DNA from: an uncultured Eubacteriales bacterium
GTDB taxonomy: Bacteria > Bacillota > Clostridia > Christensenellales > Christensenellaceae
Direction: 5' to 3'
DNA: 27,393 nt
NCBI GenBank assembly: GCA_905193725.1
Contig: CAJJPW010000006.1
Coordinates: 1 to 27,393, forward strand
Part shown: positions 20,636 to 24,731 of the stretch, piece by piece
How the letters are laid out: every line of letters begins with the position of its first letter
Position numbering within the stretch: position 1 is the first letter of the stretch
Position numbers and translations under genes: made by a program
The notes under the pieces: generated by a model
What the model saw: the letters and a program-made list of their open reading frames with translations, nothing else
Database searches by the model: none
Told to the model about the DNA's origin: nothing

Positions 20636-20881
20636 ATGGCTCAGGTAGAGGTGAAGGTCTTTGGCGTGCTGCGTTTGGAGACAGGTATCCAAAGCATGAC
20701 GCTCCGGTGTGAAAGGGTTGGGGAGGTGATCCCCCAGCTCAATCGACAGGCCCAAACCAAAGTGCCCATTAGGGCAAGGGATGTGGCACTGTATCTCAAC
20801 GGCGCTGCCTGCACTAGGCAAAGCGTCTCCCTAACAGATGGCGATGAGATTTGGATCATGTCTCCTGCTGCAGGGGGATGA
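20636..20881 (+). CDS. MoaD/ThiS-like sulfur-carrier protein
   Basis: This 81-residue beta-grasp protein opens with VEVKVFGVLRLETG, has DVALYLNGAACTRQSVSLTDGDEIWIMSP in its second half, and ends in Gly-Gly. The terminal GG is the thiocarboxylation site of MoaD and ThiS. MoaD-like proteins are frequent partners of aldehyde:ferredoxin oxidoreductases, where they are thought to supply dithiolene sulfur for the tungstopterin. No MoaE or MoeB homologue is nearby. The ATG at 20636 follows GAGGAGG by 6 nt. A longer reading from 20612 would overlap the end of aor and is less likely. It is followed by a terminator. Confidence 0.85.
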   Translation: MAQVEVKVFGVLRLETGIQSMTLRCERVGEVIPQLNRQAQTKVPIRARDVALYLNGAACTRQSVSLTDGDEIWIMSPAAGG

Positions 20882-20940
20882 TGAATTTGTTTGCAGGAGA
20901 TACAGACAGGGTATAGAAATACATATATGTGAAAAACTAG

Positions 20941-20968
20941 GAAAAGGAGCGGCAGAAGCTCTTTTTTC
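20941..20968 (+). terminator. Intrinsic terminator of the AOR operon
   Basis: AAAAGGAGC pairs with GCTCTTTT (one bulge) around GGCAGAA, followed by a T-run. It lies about 60 bp after the MoaD-like stop codon. Confidence 0.7.
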
Positions 20969-20977
20969 ATAAGGCCA

Positions 20978-21006
20978 TTGCTCTAACGTTTGGGCTGGTG
21001 CAAAAT
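20978..21006 (+). promoter_or_regulatory. Possible promoter of cysK
   Basis: TTGCTC (20978-20983), a 17-bp spacer and CAAAAT (21001-21006). The match is modest, but it sits directly after the terminator and about 28 bp before the cysK start, where a promoter is required. No T-box or S-box leader is visible. Confidence 0.4.
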
Positions 21007-21033
21007 AGAAACTGCTAGAAGGGGACGATAGTT

Positions 21034-21972
21034 ATGACCAAAATCTACCACAGCATATTAGAACTCATTGGGAATACACCACTATTGGCTTTTGATCATT
21101 ACAGCCAAAATCTCGAGCTGAAAGCAAATCTCATTGGGAAATTAGAGTATAAAAACCCAGCGGGAAGCGTGAAGGACAGAGTTGCTAGAGAGATGATTTT
21201 AGAGGCAGAGCGTATGGGCCAGCTGAAAGAGGGGTCTGTGATCATAGAGCCTACCAGCGGGAATACGGGGATCGGCCTGGCTATGGTGGCGGCAGCCAGA
21301 GGATATCGGATCATTCTCACCATGCCAGAGACCATGAGCATAGAGCGGAGAAAGTTGCTTAGTGCCTATGGGGCGGAGCTCATATTGACAGACGGCAAAA
21401 AGGGCATGAAGGGTGCCATTGAAAAGGCACAGGCGTTAAAAGAGCAGATTCCTGGGGCATTCATCCCCGGGCAATTTGAAAACCCTGTAAATCCCCAGGC
21501 CCATAAAGCCACTACCGGCCCGGAGATCTGGAGGGATACGGATGGTCAGATTGCCGCATTTGTGGCAGGCGTGGGTACAGGAGGTACCATTTCTGGGGTG
21601 GGCAACTATCTCAAGGAGCAAAATCCAAACATTCAGGTGGTTGCAGTAGAGCCAGAGGATTCTCCAGTGCTCTCCAAGGGGACTGCCGGCCCCCACAAGA
21701 TTCAGGGGATCGGCGCGGGATTTGTGCCGGACACGCTGGACACCCATGTGTACGATGAGATCATCGCCGTGGGCCATGAGCAGGCATTTGAGGCAGCGCG
21801 GAACATCGCGAAGTGGGAGGGCTTCCTCATCGGCATCTCTGCTGGAGCCGCAGTTTGGGCAGCGACCCAGCTGGCCAAGCGTTCCGAGTTTGCAGGTAAA
21901 AACATTGTAGTGCTGCTGCCAGATGGAGGAGAGCGGTATTTATCCACGCCGCTATTTGGAGAGGAGCAATAG
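21034..21972 (+). CDS. cysK: Cysteine synthase A (O-acetylserine sulfhydrylase)
   Basis: This 312-residue PLP enzyme makes L-cysteine from O-acetylserine and sulfide in the cytoplasm. The fold-type II motifs are clear: LIGNTPLL near residues 11-18, the Schiff-base lysine Lys47 in NPAGSVKDR, the phosphate-binding GTGGT loop (about residue 180), EPTSGNTG at 72-79, and a C-terminal [10 protein letters not shown]. Length and motifs match CysK, not cystathionine beta-synthase, which would carry CBS domains. The ATG at 21034 follows GAAGGGG. No serine acetyltransferase gene is adjacent. About 100 bp of spacer with two hairpins lacking a T-run (21974-22006 and 22011-22031) separates it from the trp T-box promoter. 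Confidence 0.95.
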
Positions 21973-22053
21973 GGCGCCTAGAAGGAGCAAAAAGTCAGCT
22001 AGGTGCATAGGATACCATAGGTTACGGTATCAGAAACACTGGCCACCTATCAT

Positions 22054-22082
22054 TTGACTTTAACCAGCCGGTGTGATACAAT
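22054..22082 (+). promoter_or_regulatory. Promoter of the trpBA T-box transcript
   Basis: TTGACT (22054-22059), a 17-bp spacer and TACAAT (22077-22082). Transcription would start near 22089, just before the T-box Stem I, leaving a leader of about 680 nt before trpB. Confidence 0.75.
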
Positions 22083-22210
22083 TTATTTAGCAAACCGTAG
22101 AGCGAGAAGAGTACGTATACTTGAGGCAAATAGAGAGCAGGGTAGGGTGGAAACCCAGCGGCTAGGGTATATGGAATGGACTTGTGAGGGCGGATCGAAC
22201 AGGCACCCGG

Positions 22211-22600
22211 GGGCTAAGTAGAAGGCTGGCAGACATCAAAGCGGAGGTAGAAGCCGAGCGATACGTTGGCAGACATCGAAGCGGAGGCAGAAGCCGAGCG
22301 GATAGGCTGGCGAATCACCGAAGTGAAGATGAAAGCGAGCGGTACATTAGCAGATATCGAAGTGAGTAGAGTTAAGTACGTGGCCGAGTTTATATCAATG
22401 TGAGAGAGTCAGGTGGGCTAAGTACAATGCCGGGAAGCGAATAGTGAGCTAGGTGGATTACAGACGCAACTGGGATATGTACAGTTGGTTCAAGCGGACT
22501 AAGTACAGGGCGAAAGCGAGCGAAGTGATAAAACTGGCTTACATTTCGTGGGGAAAAAGATAAGAGGATGCCTAAGTAGTTGCCGACGGGAGGCCAACCC
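22211..22600 (+). repeat. Degenerate tandem array of about 40-bp units inside the T-box leader
   Basis: Units 1 and 2 (22227-22260 and 22267-22300) share 32 of 34 bases at a 40-bp offset. Unit 3 (22308-22341) and unit 4 (from 22347) follow at 41 and 40 bp with more changes. A recurring TAAGTAC-type box and a following GGC/TGC continue at intervals of about 33-46 bp to about 22583, for roughly ten units. Because the period is 40, not a multiple of three, reading frame is not kept, so this is an RNA or DNA repeat and not a coding one. It occupies the region between Stem I and the antiterminator, where stems II and III normally lie. Confidence 0.7.
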
Positions 22601-22681
22601 GTTATCCAGAGGCGGCGCATAAAAGTGCGCTAGAAAAGCGGGCGATTGATTCGCCAAATAAGGTGGTACCGCAGAAGTGAT

Positions 22682-22717
22682 AGCTTTTGTCCTTACAACA
22701 GGGCAAAGGCTTTTTTT
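22682..22717 (+). terminator. Leader terminator of the T-box
   Basis: AGCTTTTGTCCT (22682-22693) pairs with AGGGCAAAGGCT (22700-22711) with G-U pairs, followed by seven T residues. Its 5' arm overlaps the antiterminator's 3' side, the usual T-box switch. Confidence 0.88.
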
Positions 22718-22771
22718 ATGGAACGAGAGAAATATGATTTGGTAGCCAAGATAGAAAAGGAGAGATGAGAG

Positions 22772-23956
22772 ATGAGCAAGGGAAGATTTGGCCAGCACGG
22801 AGGCCAATACATTCCAGAGACTCTGATGAACGCAGTGATCGAACTAGAAGAGGCGTATCTACACTATAAAGAGGATCCGGAGTTTCAAAGCGAGCTGGAT
22901 GAGCTGCTTCGCAATTATGCTGGCAGGCCGTCCATGCTATATTATGCCCAAAGGATGACCCAGGATCTTGGGGGAGCTAAGATTTACCTCAAGCGGGAAG
23001 ATCTCAACCACACAGGTTCTCACAAGATCAACAATGTGCTGGGGCAGATCTTGCTGGCCAAGCGCATGGGCAAGACCAGAGTGATTGCAGAGACGGGCGC
23101 AGGGCAGCACGGTGTCGCCACTGCCACAGCTGCTGCATTTATGGGCATGGAATGTGAGATCTTTATGGGATATGAGGATACAGTGCGCCAAGCCCTCAAC
23201 GTCTACCGCATGAAGCTCCTAGGGGCAAAGGTGCATGCCGTAACGTCCGGCACCCAGACCCTCAAGGATGCTGTCAATGAGACGCTGAGAGAGTGGACCA
23301 GGCGGGTAGAGGATACCCACTATGTATTGGGATCTGTGATGGGACCACACCCATTCCCCACTATCGTCCGGGATTTTCAAAGCGTCATCGGCAAGGAAGT
23401 CCGCACTCAGATCCTAGAGAAAGAGGGCAAACTGCCCGATGCGCTAATCGCCTGTGTGGGCGGTGGCAGCAATGCCATGGGGCTGTTTTACGACTTCATC
23501 CCAGATAAAAATGTGCAACTTATAGGCTGCGAAGCGGCAGGCAGGGGCATTCACACCGACCAAAACGCCGCTACCATCGCAACAGGTACACTTGGCATTT
23601 TTCACGGCATGAAATCCTACTTTTGCCAAGATCAATATGGACAAATTGCCCCGGTCTACTCCATATCCGCAGGGCTGGATTACCCGGGCATTGGGCCGGA
23701 GCACGCCAACCTCCACGACACAGGGCGGGCACAGTACGTCTCCATTACAGACGACATGGCAGTGGAGGCCTTTGAATACCTCTCGAGAACCGAGGGGATC
23801 ATTCCCGCCATTGAGAGCGCCCACGCGGTGGCATATGCCAAACAGCTGGCGCCTACCATGGGAAAAGACCAGATTATCGTAGTAAACCTCTCTGGCAGAG
23901 GGGATAAAGACGTGGCGGCAATCGCCAGATACAAGGGGGTGGACCTTCATGAGTAG
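22772..23956 (+). CDS. trpB: Tryptophan synthase beta chain
   Basis: This 394-residue PLP enzyme joins indole to L-serine to make tryptophan, in an alpha2-beta2 complex with TrpA. It opens with the TrpB1-type start [16 protein letters not shown]. The Schiff-base lysine is Lys85 in HTGSHKINN, the phosphate loop is GGGSNA (about residues 230-235), [10 protein letters not shown] lies near 108, and [14 protein letters not shown] carries the substrate-closing segment. It is the classical TrpB1 type (length and HKINN) that pairs with TrpA, not the free-standing TrpB2. The ATG at 22772 follows AAGGAGAG. Expression is controlled by the T-box leader upstream. It overlaps trpA by 8 nt. Confidence 0.98.
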
Positions 23957-24731
23957 AATTCCAAATGCCTTTCGAGATAAAAATGCGTTTATCGCCTTCA
24001 TCACAGCGGGAGATCCAGATCTGGAGACCACCAAACAGCTCATATTGGAGATGGAACAGGCAGGGACCGATTTAATCGAGCTGGGCATTCCCTTCTCCGA
24101 CCCTGTGGCCGAAGGGCTGGTCATCCAAAAGGCGGATGAGCGGGCGCTGACGGTGGGAACTACCACGGATAAGATCTTTGACATGGTGCGGGAGATTCGA
24201 AAAGTATCCCAAATCCCTCTGGTGTTTTTGACGTATATCAATCCCATTTTTGTCTATGGGACAGAGCACTTTATCAAGCGGTGTGAAGAGTGCGGCATCG
24301 ACGGCCTCATCGTCCCCGACCTTCCCTATGAAGAGAGGGAGGAACTGCTGCCCTACTGCAACGCCTGCGGGATTGACCTGATTCCGCTGATCGCCCCCAC
24401 CTCAGAGGATCGGATTCGCATGATCGCCCAAGAGGCCCAGGGATTTGTGTACTGCGTCTCTTCCATGGGCGTCACAGGCGTGCGCCAAAATATCACCACG
24501 GACATTGGGCACATGGTCTCGCTGGTACGGGAAGTGAGCGATATCCCCTGTGCTATCGGGTTTGGAGTGTCCACAAAAAAACAGGCCCAACAGATGATTG
24601 CCCAGGCAGATGGGGTCATTGTGGGCAGCGCCATTGTAAAACTCATCGGGGAGTATGGAAAGGATGCGGTAAAGCCGGTGGCAGATTATGTCAAAGGGAT
24701 GAAAAAGGCCATTTTAGAGGTGAAACTGTAA
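23949..24731 (+). CDS. trpA: Tryptophan synthase alpha chain
   Basis: This 260-residue TIM-barrel lyase cleaves indole-3-glycerol phosphate to indole and glyceraldehyde 3-phosphate, passing indole through a tunnel to TrpB. The catalytic Glu44 lies in [10 protein letters not shown]. The second catalytic acid, usually Asp in 'ADG', is Glu55 here (VAEG), a swap allowed by the family signature. The next residue, commonly Pro, is Leu (EGLVIQ). The phosphate-binding end of the barrel (GFGVST, then GVIVGSAIV near 212-220) is intact, so activity is expected. The ATG lies within the end of trpB. No trpE, D, C or F genes follow; the gene is closed by a terminator, so this is a split, two-gene trp unit. 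Confidence 0.97.

Follow-up and report, generated by a model that had tools for sequence, protein, structure and literature searches.

A tRNA-Trp T-box leader of trpBA with a large, partly repeat-built insertion at the tip of stem II

A T-box leader is in general about 250 nt long (accessible text of PMC2494555), and leaders of 300-500 nt are many in some lineages among the RF00230 matches listed in our searches. The accessible text of PMC7583486 reports curious insertions in every T-box domain and a great diversity of stem II, with the structure and function of the insertions unknown, and within that text neither a repeat array nor an insert of the size reported here is described. The TBDB database removed sequences longer than 500 nt that came from earlier databases (accessible text of PMC7778990). 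Our search of the T-box literature, which covered titles and the starts of abstracts and mostly lay outside subscription papers, found no description of a giant stem II built from repeats. Here we analyzed a 27,393-nt stretch of DNA from an uncultured Eubacteriales bacterium (contig CAJJPW010000006.1, hereafter the window). Its trpBA leader contained all the parts tested of the transcriptional tRNA-Trp T-boxes that RF00230 recognizes upstream of trpB, but the tip between its two stem II S-turn strands measured 375 nt, against 7-52 nt (median 11.5) in 62 parsed trp T-boxes, and Rfam saw the leader as two sub-threshold pieces.

Judged from its sequence, the trpBA leader is a tRNA-Trp T-box whose specifier fits the regulated pathway; all its features lie on the plus strand. 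A promoter-like site at 22054-22082, in which 17 nt separate TTGACT from a TG-preceded TACAAT, matched 10/12 consensus positions, and the consensus scan gave 2 promoter-like sites in 21960-22790 against 0.6 expected. Stem I (22089-22190), in which the motifs follow the order of eight Rfam-recognized trp T-boxes, carries the specifier TGG (22177-22179) preceded by GAA (22174-22176), upstream of trpBA. The 5' strand of stem II (22191-22205) is made up of the lower strand CGGATC (22191-22196), the S-turn GAA (22197-22199) and the upper-helix strand AGGCA (22201-22205), in the register of the comparators and with the upper helix present in the minimum-energy fold. The 3' strand (22569-22585) contains the upper-helix strand TGCCT (22569-22573), the S-turn AGTA (22575-22578), also in comparator register, and the lower strand GTTGCCG (22579-22585). 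The upper helix has 5/5 standard pairs and the lower one 4/6, the other two being U-U and A-G. Then follow the IIA/B pseudoknot element GACGGG...CCCGTTA (22585-22604, as in the comparators), the stem III hairpin GGCGA-TTGAT-TCGCC (22641-22655, pairing probability 0.83) and the T-box sequence AAGGTGGTACCGC (22660-22672), all three within the RF00230 alignment, and an intrinsic terminator with a 12-pair stem and a T run (22682-22718). The genes downstream are trpB (22772-23956; TIGR00263, 656 bits) and trpA (23949-24731), the latter identified by its translation, with relatives of up to 67% identity beside trpB genes.

With a relaxed threshold, RF00230 matched the leader in two pieces, 22528-22697 with 40.4 bits and 22089-22196 with 40.0 bits. 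The leader is without a continuous match above the gathering score of 93 bits, which is a detection cut-off and no anatomical feature, and its two halves are split by the insert. The two pieces bear out the T-box context in which the original prediction had set a repeat array. That prediction had also let the array replace or expand the stem II/III region, which holds for stem II; stem III and IIA/B are both present and were not replaced. Because these two elements are present and both S-turn strands are in normal register, the array is, as placed by its flanking motifs, inserted into the apical portion of stem II. It is 363 nt long (22206-22568) and lies between the two S-turn strands, above the 5-bp upper helix. 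The motif order in the window was GAGGG (22186-22190), CGGATC, GAA, 375 nt, AGTA, GTTGCCG and ACGG, and the eight Rfam-recognized trp T-boxes from related loci had GAGGG, six bases, GAA (AAA in two of them), a short tip, AGTA, seven bases and ACGG. The purine content of the insert was 0.667. All 72 stretches of 363 nt that are at least this purine-rich start at 22075-22217 and thus overlap the leader, and none was found on the minus strand of the 27-kb window. A weak promoter-like site (9/12) was also seen inside the insert at 22400-22428.

Comparators were collected from two genome sets by searching for a stem I pattern of trp T-boxes, 17 bases long, with up to one mismatch. The search of 391 genomes of one class gave 88 places in 80 genomes, that of 398 genomes of one phylum gave 56 places in 46 genomes. 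Every place was carried into the analysis, one of the 56 being in the collection already, and the combined, filtered set held 123 distinct T-boxes (122 and the window). The 24 places of the combined set that failed the filter included six with the core at a normal 108-125 nt (L114-L116, L187-L189), two that look like T-boxes whose core the pattern missed (L117, L130) and one that reaches the contig end (L198); the remaining fifteen look like chance. From GAGGG in stem I to the T-box sequence, the window measured 469 nt and the 122 comparators 73-181 nt. An earlier set of 97 places had left 87 T-boxes (86 and the window) that had AGAG upstream and reached a T-box core in at most 1500 nt; 24 of the 87 fell outside the strict tip-length pattern, their spans lying within the range given, which left the 62 comparators parsed for tip length. 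The first upper stem II pair was standard in 98% of these 62. After 13 with other strand lengths were set apart, 49 comparators with a 7-nt lower 3' strand showed standard pairs in 82-100% at each of the six lower stem II positions, every position with more than one type of standard pair.

Orthologous leaders with a normal stem II in the same place had been named in advance as evidence against the array. All 37 T-boxes within 392 nt upstream of a trpB homologue had spans of 89-129 nt and a normal stem II without the insert; 24 of these rows had TrpB of 79.7-85% identity, and the other 13, with TrpB of 31-68%, may not be orthologues; two rows repeat others. As the insert was found in 0/37, it is lineage-specific at the distance of these comparators, which does not make it unreal. 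The TrpB of the window was 99-100% identical to clusters P0003-P0006, which come from metagenome-type sources, and at most 87% to the others among 120 listed, the 86% matches including names such as Syntrophomonas and Christensenella. TrpA reached at most 67% identity in genome contigs. SpoVB was 92% identical to one cluster and at most 54% to the next, among which Hydrogenoanaerobacterium and Ligaoa had 50-51%.

Tandem Repeats Finder reported one array in the insert, with a period of 40 and 3.4 copies (22227-22362; 72% matches, score 135), which the self-alignment also showed. The first two units, 22227-22260 and 22267-22300, agreed at 32/34 bases (94%) at an offset of 40, just as had been read by eye, and the best self-alignment of 22211-22600 scored 65, a value far above the 27 that was the highest among 40 dinucleotide shuffles. 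A self-alignment ending after two units had been named in advance as evidence against an array; in fact a 32-nt match at an offset of 81 (22250-22281 with 22331-22362, 81%) reaches units three and four, and these also count, since by our arithmetic it would score about 34 against the shuffle maximum of 27. In a four-unit alignment the mean column identity was 77%, and GAA was present in most units. After 22363 the sequence fitted a profile built from units one to three no better than shuffles did (p about 0.15), and the best self-match there was reached by 4/40 shuffles, so that the repeats decay quickly from 94% to undetectable.

The insert also contains four TAAGTA boxes (22215-22220, 22373-22378, 22419-22424 and 22500-22505). 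On the plus strand this hexamer occurs again at 22573, as the native S-turn strand, for which reason it was picked, and elsewhere in the window only at 1612. Four copies within 22200-22568 were reached by 0/500 shuffles; if the hexamer is not chosen beforehand, the top count of the array (4) was reached by 11% of shuffles. The spacings of the five are uneven (158, 46, 81 and 73 nt). Together with the profile result after 22363, this gives no support to the ten units at 33-46 bp steps that had been described; the repeats themselves are real, about 3.4 units of 40 nt. The supported content of the insert is three to four units plus boxes that resemble an S-turn strand, and the excess of TAAGTA is compatible with duplication having left copies of the 3' S-turn strand behind.

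We searched for relatives of the insert at several levels. When the whole leader served as a DNA query against 295 genomes of one order, 31 of them gave matches. The 36 matches listed fell within query positions 3-115, which is stem I, or 485-636, from the 3' strand of stem II onward, and the array had none. The insert with its S-turn strands gave seven matches of 20-35 nt in 394 genomes (E 0.002-0.01 per genome), where about four are expected by chance, so no relative of the insert was found in the 295 and 394 genomes. No Rfam family matched the insert, a 20-mer of the array had no match in viral contigs, and no trpBA DNA was found in plasmids. Comparison of the insert with its own stem I gave P 0.24 and with the stem I of comparators P 0.69; a weak similarity to 22584-22660 had P 0.015 before correction for five tests. 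Three other readings of the leader were also tried and rejected. A TRAP-binding leader has about 11 (G/U)AG triplets spaced by 2-3 nt, and the longest (G/U)AG chain here was 3 (shuffles: mean 2.6, maximum 5). For a tandem T-box or second stem I, only the two halves of one T-box were found in the leader. No convincing leader peptide was seen in three frames, and a repeat period of 40-41 moves the reading frame from unit to unit.

Folding predictions suggested that the insert is a structured RNA. It had a z score of -3.5, and 0/300 shuffles were as low; in a comparison of strands z was -3.56 on the plus and +0.45 on the minus strand, a difference reached by 0/200 shuffles. Among 30 control stretches taken from the window, one reached z -4.1. 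The predicted fold has two subdomains on top of stem II, in which units pair with other units: subdomain A (22206-22434; z -2.6, 2/300 shuffles as low) and subdomain B, a long imperfect hairpin (22437-22549; z -4.2, 1/500 shuffles as low), both thermodynamic predictions only. The probability of the upper stem II helix was 0.86 with the real insert and on average 0.12 with shuffled inserts, 4/100 of which reached 0.86, although the energy model misses the known fold of stem I and this score of the core rests on that same program. Pairing inside the insert was 0.56 (reached by 0/100 shuffled inserts), and pairing with the outside was 0.003 (2/100 as low). Thus, by computation only, the extra RNA would fold on itself on the sense strand and leave stem II uninvaded. 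The genome searches, which found no relative of the insert, gave no sign that it is conserved.

The fold does not appear to be a series of small modules. A single unit (22223-22266) had z -0.3 and the whole tandem array alone z -0.9, and the four-unit alignment gave only 3 weak pairs (-0.5 kcal/mol), 2 of them with two-sided change, so one hairpin per unit was ruled out on energy. With every GAA/GUA pair ranked by the helices on its flanks, the native one, 22197/22576, scored 13, tied second with 22221/22342, and the top pair, with 16, uses the same native AGTA; the other AGTA boxes had no good partners with helices on both sides. We also noticed that 10 nt of the third repeat unit (22308-22317) are perfectly complementary to 22647-22656, which spans the loop and the 3' side of stem III. 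The uncorrected P was 0.017, and the predicted probability of this alternative pairing was about 1e-9.

Elsewhere in the window, 20701-21063 folds strongly as RNA (z -4.1). A second structured RNA near 20701 was rejected, as there was no Rfam match and the stretch looks coding by eye; a short frame at 20637-20883, after an aldehyde ferredoxin oxidoreductase-like gene, reads by eye like a MoaD/ThiS-like protein.

Enlarged stem II tips were also seen in other T-boxes. RF00230 searches were run in 17 and 16 genomes. From the rows listed, 40 loci (L240-L279) were chosen because their T-boxes were long or fairly long, one row coming from the second search, so the tip lengths that follow are not a random sample: 96 nt in L244, 91 in L246, 74 in L243, 60 in L241 and 49 in L248. 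In L254 (1182-1264) the tip is 83 nt of ATCAATGATC-like tandem repeats (Tandem Repeats Finder, 1184-1249). In these six T-boxes the extra RNA sits in the same place as in the window and forms a hairpin or branched hairpin, but it is about four or more times shorter and of other repeat sequence; over all the related T-boxes examined, the stem II tip was 7 to about 100 bases, compared with about 370 in the window. L254 has a further array of 14-nt repeats at 897-959, and its downstream gene reads by eye like acetolactate synthase. In two trp T-boxes, L241 and L242 (Rfam matches of 483 and 427 nt), much of the extra length follows IIA/B and precedes stem III, and growth thus has a second site there.

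The same loci contained a different kind of T-box. In 5 of the 40, from 5 different genomes, a complete tRNA-Ala gene (anticodon GGC) lies inside the leader, between IIA/B and the T-box sequence (L247:247-322, L255:284-359, L257:296-371, L265:284-359 and, on the minus strand, L256:1160-1235). These T-boxes have the specifier CTC, and the downstream gene was leuS in the three checked (L247, L255, L257). The tRNA in the leader is the sole copy more than 90% identical to the L247 tRNA in these genomes, other matches having 71-86%. Genome G710 has a 92% copy of the L247 tRNA, also within a T-box match (C30), and L240 shows a similar tRNA-bearing arrangement but contains Ns. Our literature search found nothing on a tRNA gene inside a T-box, and a T-box carrying one deserves its own study.

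We propose, with a probability of roughly 0.6, that stem II of the trpBA T-box gained its 363-nt apical domain in part through tandem duplication, and that this domain is insulated from the core and delays the antitermination decision. Stem I would catch uncharged tRNA-Trp as usual. The long domain, transcribed next, would pack as a branch to the side, to be followed by the formation of stem II, IIA/B and the antiterminator. The main effect would be a longer interval between anticodon capture and the terminator decision, with the geometry of the core little changed; by our arithmetic the delay would be about 7-18 s at rates of 20-50 nt/s. In the simplest reading, the leader would be a working T-box and the insert an insulated appendage at a site where length leaves the core undisturbed, and delay would be its likely effect. 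The S-turn strands in register, the repeats, the sense-strand fold and the enlarged tips of other T-boxes favour this proposal; the two non-standard pairs of the lower stem II helix, the control stretch at z -4.1 and the stem I fold missed by the energy model speak against it.

The main rival, which we regard as a serious though unlikely explanation, is growth of repeats without function: the stem II tip would be permissive and lengthened by slippage or duplication, and selection would only purge forms that break the switch. The absence of the insert from 37/37 leaders upstream of trpB homologues and the quick decay of its repeats suit such growth, as does L254, where the tip consists of unrelated tandem repeats and further repeats lie downstream in that genome; the sense-strand fold beyond composition and the insulation of the core, however, exceed what drift should give, unless selection against misfolding suffices. 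It is doubtful that the domain goes further and is a working module made from duplicated stem II strands, which would make the leader a compound riboswitch, one of a giant T-box class, and tune the timing or the partner of the decision, for example by means of the bases in the insert that are complementary to stem III; if so, that class would be split by the RF00230 cut-off and dropped by the 500-nt filter of TBDB. Rather improbable is a ligand platform, to which some protein, another RNA or a further part of the tRNA would bind, adding a second input. A large, purine-rich RNA that is predicted to fold well, and again the 10-nt complement to stem III, would suit this role, but the insert matched no Rfam family and had no TRAP-like triplet chain, and the alternative stem III pairing is predicted to be vanishingly rare.

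Repeated stem II or S-turn modules, which the original prediction had suggested, are now very unlikely: four extra TAAGTA boxes and a GAA in most aligned units recall them, but single units do not fold, the extra boxes find no GAA that would give them good helices to either side, and the few pairs of the four-unit alignment are weak even though two show two-sided change. Hardly credible is a MITE-like mobile or repeated DNA inserted into the loop, or a degenerate second T-box. The abrupt presence in one lineage would agree with a mobile element, but a DNA palindrome would fold on both strands and the minus strand here does not, and repeat searches found no copy elsewhere in the window, nor was there a relative in the 394 genomes; a second T-box is opposed by the insignificant similarity to stem I and by the lack of any further T-box match in the leader.

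This leader shows that the tip of stem II can carry RNA several times its usual size while the rest of the T-box stays in register, and nature thereby offers a test of the time and space that a tRNA-dependent decision allows. It also points to a blind spot of surveys: relatives may be missing from them, because the leader splits into two sub-threshold Rfam matches and exceeds the 500 nt of TBDB.
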